This document shows, one piece after another, positions 4,308 through 33,990 of a stretch of DNA of 33,990 nucleotides. The DNA is taken from contig JAENWF010000046.1 of assembly GCA_016650215.1 (NCBI GenBank), positions 1 through 33,990 of the forward strand, given 5' to 3'. Origin of the DNA: Thermoanaerobaculia bacterium. GTDB taxonomy: Bacteria > Acidobacteriota > Thermoanaerobaculia > Gp7-AA8. Positions within the stretch are counted from its first letter, which is position 1. Every line of letters starts with the position of its first letter. A model generated the notes under the pieces. The model ran no database searches and was not told the DNA's origin. It was given only the letters and a program-made list of their open reading frames with translations. The position numbers and the translations under genes are program-made.

Positions 4308-5480
4308 ATGAAACTACCAAAAGGCTTCCTCGCCTCCGGCATCCGTGCCGGCATCCGCAAGAAGCGGCCGGACCTGGGGCTGATCGTGGCGCCGAACGGG
4401 GCGAACGCGGCTGCTGTCTTTACGCAGAACCTCTTTCAAGCGGCGCCGGTCGTGCTGTCAAAAGCGTCGCTGAAAAAGACGGGGGGGCGCGTCCGCGCGG
4501 TCGTCGTCAATGCCGGCTGCGCGAATGCGGTCACCGGACGTGAGGGACTCGAGGCGGCAAAGCGGGTGCGCACGCGCGCGGCGGAAGTCGTCGCCTGCCG
4601 CGAGGAGGAAGTGTTTCTCGCCTCGACGGGCGTGATCGGCGTCGTGCTGCCGGACGGAAAAATTCGCGAGGCACTTCCAGCTTCCGTCACCAGGCTGTCG
4701 ATCGGCGGTGTCGAGGCGCTGTCGCATGCGATTCTCACGACCGACGTCGGCCCGAAAGTCACGCAAGCTTCGTTCGTCATCGGCGGCAAGCGCGCACGCA
4801 TCGTCGGTGTCGCGAAGGGCGCGGGGATGATTCATCCGAACATGGCGACGATGCTCGCGTTCGTGATGACCGACGCTGCGATCTCGACTACCGATCTGCA
4901 GCGCGCTCTGAAAAACGCAGTCGATGAGAGCTTCAACACGATCTCGGTCGACGGCGACACCTCGACGAACGATACGGTTCTCGTCATGGCCTCCGGCGCG
5001 GCGGGAAATGCGTCCGATGCCGATCTCGGCTCGTTCGCGGTTGCGCTGGCGAAAGTCTGCCGCGATCTCGCGTGGATGATCGTCCGCGACGGCGAAGGGG
5101 CGACACGCGTGATGGAAGTCGAAGTGATCGGCGCGAAAACCGACCGCGACGCGAAACTCGCGGCCCACGCGATCGCGACCTCGCCTCTCGTCAAGACCGC
5201 GCTGCACGGCGGCGATCCGAACTGGGGCCGCATCCTCGCAGCCGTCGGCCGCAGCGGCGCGCGCTTCTCGATCAAGCGCGTCTCACTCTCCGCGGGAAAC
5301 ATCACGCTCGTGACGAACGGCGCCCCTGCGTCCTATCGCGAGAAAGACGCCGCCCGCGTCTTTGCCCGCGAACGCGTCCCGCTGCGCCTCTCGCTCGGCT
5401 CCGGCAACGGCCGAGCCGTCGTCCTCTCGAGCGACATGGGACACGACTACATCAGCATCAATACTGACTACCGGTCGTGA
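4308..5480 (+). CDS. argJ: Bifunctional ornithine acetyltransferase / N-acetylglutamate synthase
   Basis: ArgJ moves the acetyl group from N-acetylornithine back to glutamate, making the arginine pathway cyclic; many members also acetylate glutamate from acetyl-CoA. The protein has 390 residues, normal for the family. The autoproteolysis site is visible as KGAGMIHPNMATMLAF, with cleavage expected between Ala180 and Thr181; Thr181 then becomes the N-terminal nucleophile of the beta chain. GDPNWGRILAAVGRSG is another family block. The ATG at 4308 follows argH by 5 nt and lacks a clear Shine-Dalgarno, so translation probably depends on coupling with argH. The gene ends the arginine run; a repeat element follows. 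Whether it is mono- or bifunctional cannot be told from sequence alone. Confidence 0.95.
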   Translation: MKLPKGFLASGIRAGIRKKRPDLGLIVAPNGANAAAVFTQNLFQAAPVVLSKASLKKTGGRVRAVVVNAGCANAVTGREGLEAAKRVRTRAAEVVACREEEVFLASTGVIGVVLPDGKIREALPASVTRLSIGGVEALSHAILTTDVGPKVTQASFVIGGKRARIVGVAKGAGMIHPNMATMLAFVMTDAAISTTDLQRALKNAVDESFNTISVDGDTSTNDTVLVMASGAAGNASDADLGSFAVALAKVCRDLAWMIVRDGEGATRVMEVEVIGAKTDRDAKLAAHAIATSPLVKTALHGGDPNWGRILAAVGRSGARFSIKRVSLSAGNITLVTNGAPASYREKDAARVFARERVPLRLSLGSGNGRAVVLSSDMGHDYISINTDYRS

Positions 5481-5497: not shown

Positions 5498-5693
5498 TAT
5501 CCTGAGCGAAGCGAAGGATCTTCTGATAGCGCTTGGGAGAACGACGCCACGGGAGACGAAAAGCCGCCGGCTTGAGAGCCGGCGCCACATCGTTCGTGGC
5601 AGGATTTCCAACTGTGGCGCTGACTCTTTCGCGGGGGCTAGAGGCGAGTTGATCCCGAGATCGATCAGAAGATCCTTCGCTTCGCTCAGGATA
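5498..5693. repeat. Composite palindromic element with 30-bp perfect inverted ends
   Basis: The ends at 5498-5527 and 5664-5693 are perfect 30-nt inverted copies built around CCTGAGCGAAGCGAAGGATC. The interior holds a REP-like hairpin (GCCGGCT-TGAG-AGCCGGC, 5566-5583) and a small inverted pair (GCGCCACA / TGTGGCGC). It fills most of the 223-bp gap between argJ and the gamma-glutamyltranspeptidase, where I see no gene. A related inverted pair occurs at 14474-14585 and related REP cores at 16911-16977 and 33874-33966. It may also act as the transcription end of the arg operon. Confidence 0.8.
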
Positions 5694-5703
5694 GACTCAC
5701 GCC

Positions 5704-7392
5704 ATGAGACGTCTGATTGCAGTCGTTCTTCTTTTCTCGGCGGTGAGTGCCCACCCGGCATCCCCGGAGCCGCGCCGCGCCCGTTACGGGATGGTCGCTT
5801 CGACAAGCGAGATCGCCTCGCGCGTCGGAGTTCAGATCATGAAGCAAGGAGGGAACGCGGTCGACGCCGCGGTGGCCGTTGCGTTCGCGCTCGCCGTCAC
5901 CTGGCCTTCGGCCGGAAACCTCGGCGGCGGCGGATTCATGCTGATCCGAAAAGCCGACGGCACTTCGGAAGCGATCGACTACCGCGAGCGCGCGCCTCTC
6001 GTCGCAACGCGCAAGATGTACCTCGACGCGCAGGGGAACGTCATCAAGGGTCTGTCGACTGACGGATACAAGGCGGTCGCCGTCCCGGGGACGGTTGCGG
6101 GCCTCTCGCTTGCGCACAGCCGCTACGGGCTTCTCCCGTGGGGTGTCGTCGTCGAGCCGGCACAACGTCTCGCACAGGAGGGCTTCTTCGTCGAGTATCA
6201 CCTGTCGCGCAGCCTTCAGAGTGAGTCGACGAACAGGAAGCTCGGCCCGTGGGCCGAGAGCCGCCGCGTGTTCCAGCGAAACGGCAGTTACTACAACGTC
6301 GGAGACAGACTCGTGCAGCCGGATCTGGCGGCCGCGCTCGCGCGCATCAAGAAAGACCCGAAGGACTTCTACGAAGGCGAAACCTCGCGCTTGATTCTCG
6401 AGGACATGCAGGCGAATGGCGGACTGATCACGGCCGCCGACCTCAAGGGATATCAGCCGACCGTGCGCAAGACGCTCACCACGACCTACCGCGGCTACGA
6501 GATCATCACGATGCCGCCTCCCTCCTCCGGCGGCGTCGCGCTGATCGAGATGCTCCAGATGCTCGAGCCGGTCGATCTCAAGTCGATGGGCTGGAACTCC
6601 GCTGCCTACACGCACACGCTCATCGAAACGATGCGGCGCGCGTTCGCCGATCGCGCCGCGTTTCTCGGCGATACCGACTTCGCGAAGAATGTTCCGGTCG
6701 AAGGGCTGCTCTCCCGCAAATACGCGCTCGAGCGCCGCAAGGACATCGACCCCGCCAAGGCGACCAGCAGCCTCAAAATCGCTTCCGGCCAGCCTGTCCG
6801 CCACGAGTCGAAGGACACGACCCACTTCACTGTCATCGACGTCGACGGCAATGCGGTCAGCAACACCTACACTCTCAACGACAGCTACGGATCGGGCGTC
6901 ACCGCGAAAGGCACCGGCATTCTGCTCAACAACGAGATGGATGACTTCACCTCGAAGCCGGGCGTGCCGAACGACTACCAGCTCATCCAGGGAGAAGCGA
7001 ACGCGATCGAGCCGCGAAAGCGGCCGCTGTCATCGATGACGCCGACGATCGTCGTGAAGGACCGCAAAGTCCGACTCGCGATCGGAAGTCCCGGCGGGCC
7101 GACGATCATCAACACTGTGCTTCAGGTCATCCTGAACGTCATCGAGTTCGACATGGACATCCAGGAAGCGATCGATGCACCGCGGTTTCATCACCAGTGG
7201 TTGCCGGACGAGATCTTCTGGGAGCCTTTCTTCAACGCCGACACGCGGGAAATTCTCGAGAAGATGGGCCACAAGTTTCGGGAGAAACCGACGAGCCTCG
7301 GCGACGCGCAGGGCGTGATGATCAATCCGGAAACAAGCATTCGCACGGGCGCTTCCGATCCGCGCCTCGGCGGCGTTCCCGCCGGCTACTGA
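5704..7392 (+). CDS. ggt: Gamma-glutamyltranspeptidase, exported
   Basis: The enzyme hydrolyses or transfers the gamma-glutamyl group of glutathione and similar peptides; bacterial forms are periplasmic or secreted and self-cleave into two subunits. The product has 562 residues with an N-terminal signal peptide (MRRLIAVVLLFSAVSAHPA). The N-terminal nucleophile is expected at Thr372 in the DTTHFTVID block, the start of the small subunit. The large subunit contains the family stretch GGNAVDAAVAVAFALAVTWP and a glycine-rich NLGGGGFM segment; PPPSSGGVALIEML and GSPGGPTIINTVLQ are further conserved blocks. The start directly follows a palindromic repeat, with no strong Shine-Dalgarno. It is probably monocistronic, since a 177-nt gap separates it from the next gene. 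Distinction from glutaryl-7-ACA acylase-type paralogues is not certain. Confidence 0.93.
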   Translation: MRRLIAVVLLFSAVSAHPASPEPRRARYGMVASTSEIASRVGVQIMKQGGNAVDAAVAVAFALAVTWPSAGNLGGGGFMLIRKADGTSEAIDYRERAPLVATRKMYLDAQGNVIKGLSTDGYKAVAVPGTVAGLSLAHSRYGLLPWGVVVEPAQRLAQEGFFVEYHLSRSLQSESTNRKLGPWAESRRVFQRNGSYYNVGDRLVQPDLAAALARIKKDPKDFYEGETSRLILEDMQANGGLITAADLKGYQPTVRKTLTTTYRGYEIITMPPPSSGGVALIEMLQMLEPVDLKSMGWNSAAYTHTLIETMRRAFADRAAFLGDTDFAKNVPVEGLLSRKYALERRKDIDPAKATSSLKIASGQPVRHESKDTTHFTVIDVDGNAVSNTYTLNDSYGSGVTAKGTGILLNNEMDDFTSKPGVPNDYQLIQGEANAIEPRKRPLSSMTPTIVVKDRKVRLAIGSPGGPTIINTVLQVILNVIEFDMDIQEAIDAPRFHHQWLPDEIFWEPFFNADTREILEKMGHKFREKPTSLGDAQGVMINPETSIRTGASDPRLGGVPAGY

Positions 7393-7569: not shown

Positions 7570-10500
7570 ATGAACGCATCGCGGCGCGTTTCTCTGTTGT
7601 TCGTTTCTTTTCTCGTAGTCCTGTTCGGCGCGCAACGCGCCGCCGGCCAGTGCGTCAGTCTGACCACGCTGGGTTCGCCCTCCACACAGAACTTCACGGC
7701 GCTGGCGAACGCAGGAACGAACGTCGCGTGGACGGACAACAGCACGATCGCTGGTTGGTACGCCACGAGGACGACCTACAACGCAGGCACGGGCTCGAGC
7801 AACACTGGAGCGATGTACAGCTTCGGCGTGGCGGGAACGAACCCACTCACCGATCGCGCGCTCGGCGGCGTCGCCTCGGGCGGCACCGGCACGTTTTACT
7901 GGGCCGGCTGCTTCACGAACAACACTGGATCGGCACTGACCTCGGTCGACATCGCCTACATAGGTGAGCAATGGCGCGATGGCGGAGCCACGGTTCCGGT
8001 CGCCCATTCGATGGCCTTCGAATTCCAGACCGCTGCCGCTGGGACCATCACCGACGCCGACACCCCGACCACCGGCTGGACAGCTGTTGCCGCTCTCGAT
8101 TTCGCCAGTCCTACTTTTACGAATACCGGAGCTGGCGTTCTACTCGATGGCAACGCCGCTGCGAATCGAACTGCGAAGGCAGCCACGATCACTGTCGCCG
8201 TCCCCATCGGAAATCAGTTCTGGGTCCGCTGGCGAGACATCAACGACGGAGGAAACGATCACGGTCTCGCTGTCGATGATTTCTCCATCACGCCCCAGGG
8301 CGGCGGCAACGCTCCCGTCGTTCCCACCTGCCCCGCTTCTTTGACGACCACGTCCGGCACCGCCACGTCGGGCGGCGTCAGCGCCACCGACACCGATGGC
8401 ACGGTCATCACCACAACGATCACCAGCATCACTCCCTCGGATCCCGGCACGATCACGCTGACCGGCTTCACTCCAGCCGGCGGTGTGGGCGGCACTGCGA
8501 ACGCGACGCTCAGCGTCTCCGCGGCGACTCCCGCGAATACGTACAGTGTGACGATCCAGTGGGCGAACAACGATGGCGTTCCGCAGACCGCGAACTGCGT
8601 CGTCAGCGTGGTCGTCAACGCTCCGCCGAGCGTCGTCTTCATTCATGACGTGCAAGGCCCCGGTGCAGCCACTCCGATTCCCGGTGCATCGGTCACAGTG
8701 GAAGGCGTCGTCATCGGCGACTTCCAGCCGCTTCCGAACGACACGCGTCTCTCAGGCTTCTTCCTTCAGGAAGAGGATGCGGACGCCGACGCAGACCCCG
8801 CGACCTCGGAAGGCATCTTCGTCTTCTGCAGCGCCTGCCCGACCGATGTGGCCGAGGGACAGCGCGTGCAGGTCACGGGCACCGTGTCCGAGTTCTTCAA
8901 CCTCACCGAGATCACGGCGACGACGCCAGTATCGGTCGTCATCACGAACGCCGGCAACAACCTCGCTCAGGTGACGCCGGCAACGATCGACCTCCCGATC
9001 CCCACGCCGACAATCGACGACTTCTACGAGCCGCGCGAAAGCATGCTGGTCACTTACGTCGACACGCTTACGGTCTCCGAATACTTCGAGCAGACGCGGT
9101 ACGGAAGGATCGAGCTTTTCGAGGGCGGCCGTCCGCGGCAGTACACCGAAGTGAACCCACCGAATGCGGCCGGATATGCGGCGCAGCTCGACAACCTGAG
9201 CCGCCGGCGCGTGTATGTCGATGACGACGACAACGTCGAGTACTCACCTCTGCTGCTTCCCGATGGTAGCGAGTTCGTGTTCCACCCGCGAGCCAACGGC
9301 GGTCTCTCCATTGGTACTCAGGGCACCGATTTCTTCCGCGGTGGTGACCTGATCAACGGTCTTACCGGGATCCTGCACTATTCGTTTTCCGGCGGAACGA
9401 GCCCCAACGAATGGCGAGTTCGCCCGATCGCAGCGACGCCGGCCGGGTTCACCGTGGCGAATCCACGCCCGGCCACACCGCCCGCCGTCGGCGGAGCCAT
9501 ACGAGTGGCCAGCGCGAACGTGTTGAACTACTTCACTACGCTCAACGTCCGCGGAGCCGATAGCGTCGCGGAGCTCAACCGGCAGCGCGAGCGCACATCG
9601 ATCGTGATCTGCAGCCTCGACGCTGACGTCGCCGCACTCATGGAAATCGAGAACGGCAACACGGCAATCGCCGACTTGCTCGCAGACGTCAACATTCGCT
9701 GCGGCGGCGCCAATCCGTACACGTTCGTCAACACCGGCGGCGCGCTCGGCACCGATCAGATCCGCGTGATGCTCATCTACCGCACGGGCATCGTGTCACC
9801 GGTCGGCGCCCCAATCGTCGATCTCGATCTGGTGCATAACCGGCCGCCGACCGCGCAGACGTTCGACGTCGTGGATGCGACGAATCCCGCGTTCGGCGAG
9901 CGTTTCACTGCTATCGCCAATCACTCGAAGTCGAAGAGCTGCGGCGGCGCGAGCGGTGCCGATCTCGATCAGAACGATGGACAGGGCTGCTTCGCCGCGA
10001 CGCGCGTCGCGCAGCACAACCTCCTCATCACCTGGGTCAACGGCACCGTTATCCCGGCCGCGGGCGATCCCGATGTCCTCCTCCTCGGCGACTTCAACTC
10101 GTACGCGCAGGAGACCCCGACGACGACGCTCACCGGAGCGGGCTTCACCGATCTCGAGACCGCGTTCCTCGGCGCGAACACCTATTCGTACCTCTTCGAC
10201 GGCCAGCTCGGCCACCTTGACTACGCCTTCTCGAGCGCCAGCCTCACGCCGCAGGTCACCGGCGTGAACGTCTGGCACATCAATGCTGACGAGAACCCGC
10301 TGTTCGACTACAACGACGAAATCGACGACGGCGCGGCCGAGGCGTTTTTAGAGGAGAAGCCGGACGGATCCGCGCTCGTTCCGCCGCGCGTCCTTTTCCA
10401 GCCTGCGTCACCTTTTCGCGCCTCCGATCACGATCCGGTCATCCTCGGCATCTTCCAGATCGCCGACCTGGTCGTCACGAAGACCGACTCGCCCGATCCC

Positions 10501-12930
10501 GTTTCGGCGGGGAACAACCTCACCTACACCATCACCGTGACCAACAACGGCCCTGACGCAGCGAGCTCCGCATCGTGGAGCGACGCGTTGCCAGCCGGGA
10601 CGACGTTCGTCTCGCTAACCAATGTTGCCGGCTGGTCCTGCACCACTCCGGCGGTCGGCGCGAACGGCACCGTCTCCTGCACCAACCCCAGCTTCGGCGT
10701 CGGCAGCGCGATTTTCACGCAAACGGTCAATGTCCAGGCATCGATCGCCGCGGGAACCGTGCTCACGAATAACGCGACTGCGAGTTCCGCGTCCGCCGAG
10801 GGAAATTCGGGCGACGAAACCGGCACCGCGACGACGACTGTCGCCGCGTCCGCGGATCTTTCGGTTACGAAGACCGACTCTCCGGATCCGGTCACCGCTG
10901 GCAACAACCTCACCTACACGATCACGGTCACCAACGCAGGTCCGAGCGACGCGGCGGGAGTCAGCTTCTCCGACACCCTGCCGGCTGGCACTACGTTCGT
11001 TTCACTTTCATCGCCGGGCGGATGGTCATGCACCACTCCCGCGGTCGGTGCAGGCGGAACCGTTTCCTGCTCGAACCTGAGCCTTGCTGTCGGTAATGCG
11101 GTCTTTACTCTCACAGTAGCGGTTATGCCGTCGACCGCGACCGGCACGGTTCTGTCCAACACCGCGACGGTTTCCTCGGCGACGTCCGATCCGAATACGG
11201 GCAACGAGAGCGACACCGAGACAACGACCGTCGCCGCGTCTGCCGATCTCTCGGTGACGAAGGTCGACACCCCGGATCCGGTCACTGCAGGCAACAATCT
11301 CACCTACACCATCACGCTCACGAACGCAGGTCCGAGCGATGCGGCGGGCGTCAGCTTGTCCGATATCCTGCCGGCAGCCACCACATTCGTTTCCCTTTCC
11401 TCGCCGGGCGGATGGTCCTGCACGACTCCTGCGGTCGGCGCAAGTGGTGGCACGGTCTCCTGCTCGAACGCGAGCCTCGCAGCCGGCAGCGCGGTTTTCA
11501 CGCTGACCGTCGGTGTCCCTCCCAGCGTCCCGGACGGCACCGTCATCACCAATACCGCAACAGCTTCGTCATCCACTAGCGATCCGAACCCCGGCAATGA
11601 GAGCGGAACGGCGACGACGACCGTTGGCGTGGGCTCGGCCGATCTATCTGTGACGAAGGTCGACACGCCGGATCCAGTCACCGCAGGCACCAACCTCACT
11701 TACACCATCACTGTGAACAACGCAGGTCCGAGCGATGCCACGACCGCGACGCTCTCTGACACGATCCCCGCGGGGACGAGCTTCGCCTCGCTGTCATCCC
11801 CGGGCGGATGGTCCTGCACCACTCCCGCGGTCGGCGCGAGTGGCACGGTCTCCTGCTCGAACCCGAGCCTCGCACCCGGCAACGCAGTCTTCACGCTGAC
11901 CGTCGGTGTACCTCCCAGCGTTCCGGACGGCACCGTCATCACCAACACCGCCACGGCTTCGTCATCCACTTCCGATCCGAACCCCGGCAATGAGAGCGGA
12001 ACCGCGACGACTACCGTAGGCGTCGGCTCGGCCGATCTGTCTGTGACGAAGGTCGACACTCCCGATCCGGTGAACGCCGGAAGCAACCTCACCTACACCA
12101 TCACCGTAACGAACGCAGGTCCGAGCGATGCCACAACCGCAACGCTCAGCGACACGATCCCGTCCGGGACAACGTTCGTCTCGCTGCCATCCCCGGCCGG
12201 GTGGTCGTGCGTCGTGCCTGCAGTCGGTGCAGGGGGACCGGTCACATGCTCGAACCCGAGCATGGCCATCGGCAGCAGCGTCTTCACCCTGACGGTCGCG
12301 GTCGACCCGCTGGCTGCCGCAGGAAGCATCATCACCAACACCGCGGCGATTGCATCCGCCACGACCGATCCGGATTCCAGCAATGACAGCAGCACGGCGA
12401 CGACCGACGTTGTCTCGCCGGCCACGATCTCAGGTACGAAGACGGCGTCCGGCACCTTCCTCCCGGGATCGACGGTGACATACACGATCGTGCTCTCGAA
12501 TGCGGGTCCGGCCACGCAGCTGGATAACCCTGGCGACGAGCTCAGCGATGTTCTGCCACCGGAGCTGACACTCCTCACCGCAACCGCAACATCCGGAACC
12601 GCCATCGCAACGATCGGTACGAACACCGTTGCGTGGAACGGCTCGATCCCGGCTGCCGGCTCTGTGACGATCACGATTCAAGCTCTGATCGAAGCAGTCC
12701 CGGTAGGCACGACGATCAGCAACCAGGGGACGATCAACTACGACGCGGACGGCAACGGTACGAATGAGACGGCAACCTTGACCGACGATCCGGCGCAGGG
12801 CGGCACCAACGATCCGACCGTCTTCACCGTGCCGGCGGTCGCTGCCATCCCGGCGCTCGACGGCTTCGGACACGCCGGCCTGGCCGCGCTTATCGCAGGC
12901 ATTGGTCTCCTGGTCATGCGGCGCTCCTGA
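7570..12930 (+). CDS. Secreted ExeM/NucH-like nuclease with DUF11 repeats and IPTL-CTERM-like tail
   Basis: This is a 1786-residue exported protein. Residues 1-26 form a signal peptide ending near QRAAGQ. Residues about 27-245 are a beta-rich N-terminal region, followed by an Ig/cadherin-like stretch (to about 350) and an OB-fold-like segment (about 355-480). An endonuclease/exonuclease/phosphatase domain spans about 643-962, with IRVASANVLNYF, a Glu in ALMEIENG, the GDFNSY catalytic block and terminal SDHDPV. From residue 965 there are five DUF11 repeats of about 130 residues (965, 1095, 1225, 1357, 1488) and a divergent sixth (1618). The last 27 residues (from IPALDGFGHAG, hydrophobic helix, RRS end) resemble an IPTL-CTERM sorting signal. 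By family, this should be an extracellular DNase or phosphodiesterase, perhaps for biofilm DNA or phosphorus scavenging; that role is inferred. A GGGG-type weak ribosome site precedes the ATG. Confidence 0.88.
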   Translation: MNASRRVSLLFVSFLVVLFGAQRAAGQCVSLTTLGSPSTQNFTALANAGTNVAWTDNSTIAGWYATRTTYNAGTGSSNTGAMYSFGVAGTNPLTDRALGGVASGGTGTFYWAGCFTNNTGSALTSVDIAYIGEQWRDGGATVPVAHSMAFEFQTAAAGTITDADTPTTGWTAVAALDFASPTFTNTGAGVLLDGNAAANRTAKAATITVAVPIGNQFWVRWRDINDGGNDHGLAVDDFSITPQGGGNAPVVPTCPASLTTTSGTATSGGVSATDTDGTVITTTITSITPSDPGTITLTGFTPAGGVGGTANATLSVSAATPANTYSVTIQWANNDGVPQTANCVVSVVVNAPPSVVFIHDVQGPGAATPIPGASVTVEGVVIGDFQPLPNDTRLSGFFLQEEDADADADPATSEGIFVFCSACPTDVAEGQRVQVTGTVSEFFNLTEITATTPVSVVITNAGNNLAQVTPATIDLPIPTPTIDDFYEPRESMLVTYVDTLTVSEYFEQTRYGRIELFEGGRPRQYTEVNPPNAAGYAAQLDNLSRRRVYVDDDDNVEYSPLLLPDGSEFVFHPRANGGLSIGTQGTDFFRGGDLINGLTGILHYSFSGGTSPNEWRVRPIAATPAGFTVANPRPATPPAVGGAIRVASANVLNYFTTLNVRGADSVAELNRQRERTSIVICSLDADVAALMEIENGNTAIADLLADVNIRCGGANPYTFVNTGGALGTDQIRVMLIYRTGIVSPVGAPIVDLDLVHNRPPTAQTFDVVDATNPAFGERFTAIANHSKSKSCGGASGADLDQNDGQGCFAATRVAQHNLLITWVNGTVIPAAGDPDVLLLGDFNSYAQETPTTTLTGAGFTDLETAFLGANTYSYLFDGQLGHLDYAFSSASLTPQVTGVNVWHINADENPLFDYNDEIDDGAAEAFLEEKPDGSALVPPRVLFQPASPFRASDHDPVILGIFQIADLVVTKTDSPDPVSAGNNLTYTITVTNNGPDAASSASWSDALPAGTTFVSLTNVAGWSCTTPAVGANGTVSCTNPSFGVGSAIFTQTVNVQASIAAGTVLTNNATASSASAEGNSGDETGTATTTVAASADLSVTKTDSPDPVTAGNNLTYTITVTNAGPSDAAGVSFSDTLPAGTTFVSLSSPGGWSCTTPAVGAGGTVSCSNLSLAVGNAVFTLTVAVMPSTATGTVLSNTATVSSATSDPNTGNESDTETTTVAASADLSVTKVDTPDPVTAGNNLTYTITLTNAGPSDAAGVSLSDILPAATTFVSLSSPGGWSCTTPAVGASGGTVSCSNASLAAGSAVFTLTVGVPPSVPDGTVITNTATASSSTSDPNPGNESGTATTTVGVGSADLSVTKVDTPDPVTAGTNLTYTITVNNAGPSDATTATLSDTIPAGTSFASLSSPGGWSCTTPAVGASGTVSCSNPSLAPGNAVFTLTVGVPPSVPDGTVITNTATASSSTSDPNPGNESGTATTTVGVGSADLSVTKVDTPDPVNAGSNLTYTITVTNAGPSDATTATLSDTIPSGTTFVSLPSPAGWSCVVPAVGAGGPVTCSNPSMAIGSSVFTLTVAVDPLAAAGSIITNTAAIASATTDPDSSNDSSTATTDVVSPATISGTKTASGTFLPGSTVTYTIVLSNAGPATQLDNPGDELSDVLPPELTLLTATATSGTAIATIGTNTVAWNGSIPAAGSVTITIQALIEAVPVGTTISNQGTINYDADGNGTNETATLTDDPAQGGTNDPTVFTVPAVAAIPALDGFGHAGLAALIAGIGLLVMRRS
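10462..12420 (+). repeat. Five tandem DUF11-encoding repeats
   Basis: Units begin at 10462, 10852, 11242, 11638 and 12031, each 390-396 nt, every one opening with an ADL(S/V)VTK motif and NLTYTIT. Units 3 and 4 share a stretch of nearly 60 identical residues spanning their 3' parts and the start of the following unit, and are also very close at the nucleotide level. This indicates recent duplication or gene conversion. A sixth, divergent unit starts at 12421. Confidence 0.92.
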
Positions 12931-14473: not shown

Positions 14474-14585
14474 TATCCTGAGCGAAGCGAAGGATCAACG
14501 GCGGCACCGCGCCAGTCGTGCTTCGAGCGATGCACGTAGCCGATCCACGGCGGTGCCACCGCTGACCCTTCGCTTCGCTCAGGGT
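14474..14585. repeat. Second copy of the GAGCGAAGCGAAGG inverted element
   Basis: Left arm TATCCTGAGCGAAGCGAAGG (14474-14493) and right arm CCCTTCGCTTCGCTCAGGG (near 14565-14585) are inverted copies of the same core that bounds the element at 5498-5693. An inner inverted pair (CGGCGGCACCG / CGGCGGTGCCACCG-like) lies between them. The element occupies the gap between the M20 peptidase and the mini-gene, in which I see no protein-coding potential. Confidence 0.75.
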
Positions 14586-14651
14586 TGGATTTTTTTAGGC
14601 TTCCCCGCAGGATGTCGCGCGGCGAGCGGAAGCTCGCCGCGCCGCAGACAT

Positions 14652-16874: not shown

Positions 16875-16910
16875 TGCGTGTCGGGAACCACCTCGGCGAA
16901 GCGAAGCGAC

Positions 16911-21282: not shown

Positions 21283-21302
21283 TTCGGCACCTGCTGCGGA
21301 GA

Positions 21303-21401
21303 AGCAAATGCAAAATGCAAAATGCAGAAAGGGCCCCGCTACATCGGGCGAGGCGCTATGCAGAATCTCTTTTTGCATTTTGCATTCTGCATTTTGCATT
21401 T
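21303..21401. repeat. TGCAAAA octamer inverted element, copy 1 (coxA-coxC)
   Basis: The left arm (21303-21330) is a tandem of about 8-nt TGCAAAA/TGCAGAA units. The right arm (21370-21401) is the inverted tandem, with 39 nt of unrelated sequence between. It fills the coxA-coxC gap. In RNA it would form a long A/U-rich hairpin. Any reading frame through it gives the same hydrophobic peptide pattern, so open frames here are not genes. Confidence 0.9.
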
Positions 21402-21415
21402 CGACGCCCTGCCTC

Positions 21416-26609: not shown

Positions 26610-27214
26610 TGAGCACCCCCGTGCTGCGGCACGGCGGCGGGAACCGGGGCGTTGAGTCTCGCCTGCTCCCCCAGCGGAACATCCGCGACGGTCGCACTCT
26701 GACTGAGTTGCAGCGCGCGGATGTAGGCAACGATCGCCCAGCGGTCATGCACCGGAATCATCGTCCGGTACGCCGGCATCGAAGCGAATCCATTCGTGAT
26801 CACGTCGTAGAAATGTCCTGTCTTCGCACTACGCAGCGTCAGCGTGTGGAACGACGGCGGCCTGCGGAAACCACGCGAAGGAATCATCCCGTTGCCGTCT
26901 CCCGCACGCCCGTGGCATTGCGCACAATAGATGTTGAATCGTTCCTGGCCGCGATCCATCGTCGCGCCCGTGACTGCAAAGGGGAACCCGTCGCCATCCT
27001 GCCCATTGATCTTTCCGGTCTCGAGATATGGATCGTTGAGCAGCTCGCCGCGCGCGACCGTTCCCGCGATTCGCGGACGAGACGCCATGCCGTCTGCGAA
27101 GAAGTCGCTCGGCTCGAGCGGATCGTAGCGCGCCTGGTTGGCCATCTTCTGACGGCACGCTGTGGAGAAGAATGCAAAATGCAAAATGCAAAATGCAAAA
27201 AGGATCCTGCGCAT
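26606..27214 (-). CDS. actE: Alternative complex III cytochrome c lipoprotein ActE
   Basis: ActE is a monohaem cytochrome c lipoprotein that passes electrons out of ACIII. The mature part is typical: CRQKMANQARYDPLEPSDFF, then FPFAVTGATMDRGQERF and the haem site CAQCH (97-101), with Met146 (GFASMPAY) as likely sixth ligand. The lipidated residue should be Cys20. The ATG at 27214 gives the signal peptide MRRILFAFCILHFAFFSTAC; starting later would remove the conserved Cys. The hydrophobic core of that signal (FAFCILHFAF) is encoded by the 8-nt repeat at 27171-27201, a striking intrusion. The start codon lies in the loop of the hairpin formed by this element. The stop overlaps actF by 4 nt. Confidence 0.93.
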   Translation of the reverse strand: MRRILFAFCILHFAFFSTACRQKMANQARYDPLEPSDFFADGMASRPRIAGTVARGELLNDPYLETGKINGQDGDGFPFAVTGATMDRGQERFNIYCAQCHGRAGDGNGMIPSRGFRRPPSFHTLTLRSAKTGHFYDVITNGFASMPAYRTMIPVHDRWAIVAYIRALQLSQSATVADVPLGEQARLNAPVPAAVPQHGGAH

Positions 27215-27259
27215 GAGGGGTGATCCCTTTTTGCATTTTGCATTTTGCATTCTGCATTC
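27171..27259. repeat. TGCAAAA octamer inverted element, copy 2 (actD-actE)
   Basis: The left arm (27171-27201) lies inside the actE coding region and the right arm (27228-27259) in the 64-nt actD-actE gap. On the mRNA the arms, extended by GGGATC/GATCC, can form a stem of nearly 30 bp whose apical loop contains the actE start codon (27214-27212). Any effect on translation is inferred. Confidence 0.9.
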
Positions 27260-27278
27260 GGGCGCGAAGCGCCCGCTC

Positions 27279-29287: not shown

Positions 29288-29390
29288 GGACGAAATGCAG
29301 AATGCAGAATGCAGAATGCAAAATGCAAAAAGACACATCGTCTCTATTTCTGCATTTTGCATTTTGCATTCTGCATTTTGCATTTCGTCC
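29288..29390. repeat. TGCAAAA octamer inverted element, copy 3 (actB-actC)
   Basis: The arms at 29288-29331 and 29347-29390 begin and end with the same outer motif (GGACGAAATGCA / TGCATTTCGTCC). Each holds about five TGCA-centred 8-nt units, with only about 15 nt between them. It occupies most of the gap between actB and actC. This is the longest and most symmetrical of the three copies. Confidence 0.92.
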
Positions 29391-33823: not shown

Positions 33824-33873
33824 TAGCGCGACTCGGGTGCGTTTGTCATTCTTAGCCGCGAAGACTGGAGAGG

Positions 33874-33966
33874 ACGAAAAGCCGCCGGCTGAAGCCGGCG
33901 CCACGTCAACCGCGAATGCTGCCACGAGAGCCGTGCTCGACGTGGCGCCGGCTTCAGCCGGCGGTC
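33874..33966. repeat. REP-like doublet with 26-bp perfect inverted arms
   Basis: The arms 33882-33907 and 33939-33964 are perfect inverted copies. Each also contains its own hairpin (GCCGGCT-GA-AGCCGGC at 33884-33899). The left arm matches the cores at 5561-5592 and 16921-16952 except for a two-base shorter loop (GA for TGAG) and CACGTC for CACATC. The layout, two REP units in opposite orientation, resembles a REPIN. The stretch from 33774 to the window end holds no gene that I can see. Confidence 0.8.
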
Positions 33967-33990
33967 TTCCGTTCCCGTTTGACGTCAAAC

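Follow-up and report, generated by a model that had tools for sequence, protein, structure and literature searches.

Between argJ and a gamma-glutamyltransferase gene, both on the + strand of a 33,990-nt stretch of Thermoanaerobaculia DNA (here the window), a 223-nt gap holds an element with long inverted ends (positions 5498-5693; Table 1). The question that this locus raises is whether these ends are those of a transposon and, if not, what sort of repeat they represent and what sort of enzyme could have copied it. A sequence-only reading had described perfect inverted ends of 30 bp around a REP hairpin, and the ends are real, the arms at 5498-5527 and 5664-5693 being exact reverse complements over 30 nt and matching at 90% over 41 nt. 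The folded element lies about 9 s.d. above shuffled sequences in stability, and it folds far better than these both as RNA and as DNA. Each 30-nt arm is a 21-nt REP hairpin and not a transposon end, with GGT and TCT at the tag positions of the two units in place of GTC. The REP enclosed at 5555-5592 is unrelated to the arm unit and equally dispersed, and its core does recur at two other places, as had been reported. Because the arm extensions are those of a 75-nt spacing class while the interior is enlarged by this second REP copy, the element is a nested composite. At 33869-33972 the second REP family forms an inverted pair of its own (GTGGCGCCGGCT...AGCCGGCGGC), with 41-nt arms and 17 nt between them. 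A search of the window against Rfam gave no family at the gathering score and a single weak, meaningless match.

Table 1. Coordinates of the repeat units, the composite element and the flanking genes in the window.
Feature	Position	Strand	Remarks
Composite element	5498..5693	.	Head-to-head dimer of TGTC-type tandem-GA REP units; second REP family in the loop
Left REP unit, ATCCT-GA-GC-GAA-GC-GA-AGGAT	5499..5519	+	GA strand is the + strand
Right REP unit, identical in sequence to the left unit	5672..5692	-	
Left arm extension CTTCTGATAGCGCTTGGGA	5520..5538	+	Typical of the family's 75-nt spacing class
Right arm extension, counterpart of CTTCTGATAGCGCTTGGGA	5653..5671	-	8 nt perfect, divergent beyond
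Embedded second REP family GACGAAAAGCCGCCGGCTTGAGAGCCGGCGCCACATCG	5555..5592	.	More copies at 16902 and 33869
argJ, upstream gene	4308..5480	+	Stop codon 17 nt ahead of the element
Gamma-glutamyltransferase gene, downstream	5704..7392	+	
Second dimer, left unit (ATCCT/AGGAT subtype)	14475..14495	+	
Second dimer, right unit (ACCCT/AGGGT subtype)	14565..14585	-	Compensatory stem change

A second dimer, at 14474-14585, has arms that match at 91% over 34 nt and encloses a different interior. The two arm pairs had been taken to be the same, which holds for the core, whereas exact identity is limited to the 17-mer CCTGAGCGAAGCGAAGG, because the right arm of the second dimer is of the ACCCT/AGGGT subtype. 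Directly after this dimer and behind an M20 peptidase gene, positions 14586-14597 read GGATTTTTTT, with seven T, a terminator-like copy of a kind that is rare in the family. Searched genome-wide, as had been suggested, the arm-core 17-mer gives 218 exact matches in the 3.19-Mb genome and its reversed control none; together with the stability of the fold, these counts mean that the arm repeat is not a product of chance.

Other counts within this genome come mostly from a 1.04-Mb sample, about a third of the total, whose stretches were partly picked for holding units. There the 21-mer unit is present in 84 exact copies and in 12 more with one mismatch. The perfect ends, from which a recent insertion had been argued, are thus the consensus of the family and do not mark this copy as young. 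The 5-bp stem is fully complementary in 121 of 140 units, against a mean of 62 and a maximum of 77 when the partners are shuffled, and the stem types include ATCCT/AGGAT (82 units), ACCCT/AGGGT (35) and ATGCT/AGCAT (3); the first two stem pairs are A-T in the first of these, and the second retains the first pair alone. Since exact copies far exceed those with one mismatch, while copies with two compensated changes are common and also outnumber the one-mismatch copies, the stem is maintained by compensatory change. TGTC, CGTC or GGTC is the commonest tag before ATCCT units (36 of 82), and is less frequent with the ACCCT subtype. In the same sample GTGGCGCCGGCT, of the second REP family, has 70 copies (reversed control 2), and the 13-mer of the unit is found 244 times in the whole genome and 81, 40, 26 and down to 1-3 times in other genera of the family. 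On contig C33, at 44789-44939 (L035 ~4792-4939), three units follow one another in the same orientation every 67 nt, which suggests local tandem duplication of half-elements.

Repeats of another design are also present in the window, at three intergenic sites where tandem TGCAAAA/TGCAGAA heptamers form inverted arrays, the arms reaching 44 nt (21299-21408, 27169-27265 and 29288-29390); 16 array cores were counted over the 1.04 Mb, against 0 for the reversed control, and a relative (L075) repeats the design with an ATTTTGG unit. Within a coding sequence, the 1786-aa protein encoded at 7570-12930 contains a tandem series of five to six DUF11-type repeats, each about 130 aa long (10439-12404); at the DNA level, two of them share 90% identity.

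On one strand, the arm unit consists of a 5-bp stem, facing GA/GA steps and a GCGAAGC tip. We take the facing GA/GA steps to form sheared G.A pairs, and the opposite strand would presumably carry TC/TC mismatches; the tandem G.A step and the GNA mini-loop are confined to one strand. Variants of the core in the same genome retain GA/GA with an altered inner helix (GAGCCGCGAAGACGGCGA, 17 times, GAGGAGCGAAGCGACGA and others). Written out by parts, the variants, in which the inner helix or the loop changes in a paired way, include GA-GCCG-CGAAGA-CGGC-GA (17), GA-GC-GCA-GC-GA, GA-GC-GGA-GC-GA, GA-G-GA-GC-GAA-GC-GA-C-GA and GA-GCTG-CGAAGA-CAGC-GA.

The arrangement of the units is as constrained as their fold. 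In the 1.04-Mb sample, neighbouring units are head-to-head in 33 cases and tail-to-tail in none, at discrete dimer spacings (58, 75, 79, 90 and 105); single and tandem units also occur, and elements with identical ends have wholly different interiors. Placement in this sample was counted over gaps longer than 100 nt, with genes from a codon-usage caller built for this analysis, and elements lie in 30 of 61 convergent (49%), 40 of 181 tandem (22%) and 3 of 78 divergent gaps (4%), the median distance from the upstream stop codon to the first unit of a tandem gap being about 27 nt. Dimers sit just behind gene 3' ends and avoid divergent promoters. Intragenic copies, considered as a source of exact empty sites, were set aside, two in-gene core matches being chance matches devoid of the stem and the others lying at gene ends; likewise, a 1.1-kb interval between inverted units on contig C33, considered as a transposon, holds an ordinary gene and no transposase. 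In the roughly one third of the genome that was read, no transposase gene bounded by units was noticed. Units at gene ends (L246, L047, L041, L050) translate to peptides such as HPERSEGS and ILRFAQDD, and a literature search for the unit sequence or these translated peptides found nothing relevant. Translated units are an annotation hazard, being a likely source of spurious protein ends of this sort.

The sequence-only reading had also suggested a comparison with empty sites in relatives. The relatives available belong to other genera, whose intergenic DNA is not alignable, and the slot was compared by its flanking genes. Six other genera of the family retain the adjacency of argJ and the transferase gene, and the unit is missing from the slot in all of them, where other sequences of 50-122 nt, mostly hairpin-forming, are found instead. 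No relative whose argJ-ggt gap can be compared has the element, in a comparison between genera that is not base-exact, since the DNA of these relatives is too diverged to yield a base-exact empty site. Behind argJ (L073, L074, L075, L078, L080, L081 and L084) the sequence changes from genus to genus and is mostly palindromic, L084 having a near-perfect palindrome some 80 nt long and L081 an inverted repeat of ACCACAGAGACACAGAGA.

Beyond the family, a scan of 84,980 species genomes with ATNNTGAGCGAAGCGAANNAT, in which the phylum was taken from the record title, found loci in at least 16 phyla, isolates among them (Mucilaginibacter, Pedobacter, Hymenobacter and Helicobacter marmotae). Among the cross-phylum matches listed, 86 of 91 units have complementary free stem pairs, GTC precedes the unit in 84-87 of 91 and C follows it in 87 of 91, all three features lying outside the ATNNTGAGCGAAGCGAANNAT query; after the conserved C, the rest of the 3' tail is mostly CT or CC. 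Dimers among the matches listed are head-to-head in 29 cases versus 7 tail-to-tail, and are often heterodimers with different inner helices. At E 0.05, none of 5,426 E. coli genomes gave a match, and the few plasmid matches are all in Planktothrix and Calothrix. Recurrent neighbours of the units in 80 cross-phylum loci include no transposase-like family and form small, seemingly ordinary clusters (signalling, chaperone, aminotransferase and sugar-metabolism types). In a wider search for any GTC-tagged 5-bp hairpin in these 80 cross-phylum and 80 viral loci, GA/GA greatly outnumbers any other inner step (113 of 245 GTC..C hairpins, against 0 of 278 with four scrambled tags), and inner segments are self-paired in 55 of 82 distinct cases (shuffles 6.9, maximum 15), the variant units from related loci not being phylogenetically independent. 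Some inner helices run to seven pairs and have unrelated sequences, for example GTCCGCC-GGA-GGCGGAC.

The tip of the unit has a counterpart in structural work on DNA. GCGAAGC forms an ultra-stable DNA mini-hairpin, with a Tm of about 78 C, and what defines its class is a GNA or GNNA loop seated on G-C pairs. The d(GCGAAGC) of Hirao, Yoshizawa and colleagues matches the apical GCGAAGC exactly; the published molecule is a short synthetic DNA, whereas in the unit the motif caps a repeat of natural genomic DNA (cited in PMC4686876). Among the GTC-tagged hairpins of the 160 loci, 11 of 22 triloops are GNA, and of 15 tetraloops six are GNNA and four TTTA. This DNA-type loop preference points to recognition at the level of DNA; it is suggestive and not proof, since tandem G.A steps are stable in RNA too.

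Among known systems, the closest is the CGTC-tagged REP superfamily of Di Nocera, De Gregorio and Rocco (2013, PMC3733652), to which the arm unit by most tests belongs, as a tandem-GA variant that goes beyond the text description in that paper. As there described, these REPs share with the arm unit a CGTC/TGTC tag, A-T pairs starting the stem and a 3' C, the prevalence of head-to-head pairs with tail-to-tail rare and heterodimers common, a location between convergent or unidirectional genes near 3' ends, an occurrence in several phyla and the lack of a transposase gene bordered by the repeat. The published stem is 8-9 bp with a loop of 4-5 nt, whereas the arm unit has 5 bp, a tandem G.A step and an inner helix with mostly a 3-nt GNA loop; the 3' tail is CCA in the former and CTT, CCC or CTA in the latter, with the first C common to both and the rest a possible difference, and the text counts five phyla, Acidobacteria not among them, as against at least 16 here (PMC3733652). 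Overlap with one of the four published families is possible, the arm unit being set apart from them by that text and not by the sequences of its Figure 2. Described as abundant, patchy and devoid of a transposase, CGTC REPs have been orphans since 2013, with an enzyme unknown to the authors of that paper.

Resemblance to other systems is more partial. GTAG-tagged REPs and REPINs with their RAYT are likewise short intergenic hairpins with a 5' guide, forming dimers and reaching high copy number, but their tag is GTAG (GTGG) instead of GTC, and the repeat borders a cognate RAYT, whereas no RAYT gene is bordered by the arm unit. TIRtrons, TIRYT genes flanked by GGGGWSAS repeats (PMC3733652), are represented in this genome by a gene of that type on C109, whose GGGGTCAGGTC ends have dispersed copies; TIRtron repeats bear no sequence relation to the arm unit. 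High-copy hairpins of Acidobacteria tied to an atypical Y1 class, class 3 TnpA-Y1 (PMC6006769), are like the arm unit in copy number and host, but have a CnGA foot, and no class 3 gene is linked to the arm unit here.

Who moves the units can be asked of the transposases in the genome itself. The sequence-only reading had envisaged movement in trans by a REP-associated transposase and named a Y1 gene as the thing to look for, and the genome encodes two REP_Tyr_transpos (NF047646) proteins, so that the lack of any Y1 transposase, named there as part of what would refute the reading, does not apply. The RAYT on C93 (L032) has inverted GTGTGGCGGCGGGCG repeats on both sides, dispersed in the genome, and the 326-aa Y1 on C109 (L031) has inverted GGGGTCAGGTC repeats on both sides, an 11-mer with 19 dispersed copies in the 1.04-Mb sample. 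That RAYT-linked REP movement takes place here is shown by the argD-like aminotransferase gene at 498-1733, in which an in-frame REP of the GTGTGGCGGCGGGCG family (1459-1494, about 12 extra residues) is missing in 14 relatives and reads as a clean insertion by a family other than the arm unit. However, the repeats bordering C93 and C109 both differ from the unit of 5498-5693, neither gene is flanked by the unit, and the unit is without a GTAG tag; an exact unit lies within about 1.5 kb of a Y1 gene at none of 30 loci in this genome and its relatives, no Y1-like ORF is found near units in the 80 cross-phylum and 80 viral loci, and the number of Y1 genes has no positive relation to that of units (Spearman -0.41, p 0.16). 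The earlier description as a REP-type, non-coding, genome-wide repeat thus stands, while the local RAYTs find no support as its movers, and we regard movement by them as quite unlikely.

The strong bias to gene 3' ends and convergent gaps, the long and stable RNA hairpin, the replacement of the element in six relatives by other, mostly hairpin-forming sequences and the seven T after the dimer at 14474 would all suit an RNA element, a bidirectional terminator or an mRNA 3'-end stabiliser kept by selection and spread by recombination instead of transposition. We consider this unlikely, in that T5 follows only 4 of 100 transcript-sense element ends, lone units face either way with respect to the gene, without bias (9 sense, 12 antisense), the loops are of DNA type, and what is common to many phyla is the sequence of the unit itself, beyond its hairpin shape. 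A classical MITE, in which the 30-nt ends would serve a DDE transposase as terminal inverted repeats, would account for the perfection of the ends and for the discrete sizes of the elements, but no target duplication is seen at dimer ends at any boundary or length tested, units also occur singly or in tandem, each end is a hairpin conserved independently, and interiors are wholly different between elements with identical ends, which makes this origin very improbable.

It is likely, in our view, that 5498-5693 is a head-to-head dimer of a CGTC/TGTC-tagged REP with another REP inside, that is, a non-autonomous element of REPIN/BIME-like type. Copy number, patchy distribution and the absence in other genera at this slot suggest that the unit is mobile. 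The unit would be recognised as single-stranded DNA, for example on the lagging-strand template, by a trans-acting enzyme that engages the hairpin and its 5' GTC guide and copies dimers to new sites. This enzyme is probably neither RAYT found in the genome, since both adjoin other repeats. Because IS200/IS605 and REP Y1 enzymes use a hairpin together with a guide tetranucleotide 5' of it (PMC6006769), a Y1-type mechanism would, by analogy, be the natural candidate class. Copies would persist mainly behind genes because insertion would be harmless there; their transcripts would form long hairpins, which may shield the 3' ends of mRNA, so that a secondary benefit at the RNA level may be conferred by the units.

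Tentatively, and as a serious possibility rather than an expectation, the tandem-GA GTC-tagged hairpins of at least 16 phyla could form one class; a structural code could mark them for recognition in single-stranded DNA, and an enzyme of broad compatibility, travelling or present across these phyla, could copy them. The code, proposed with the same reserve, would comprise the GTC guide, an A-T foot, the sheared G.A step, any inner helix and a GNA or GNNA mini-loop. As a strand-specific DNA mini-hairpin, the unit predicts what the missing enzyme of the CGTC REPs must bind, it gives a search pattern (GTC-N5-GA-helix-GNA-helix-GA-N5'-C), and its natural variants, spanning phyla, provide a set for binding assays.
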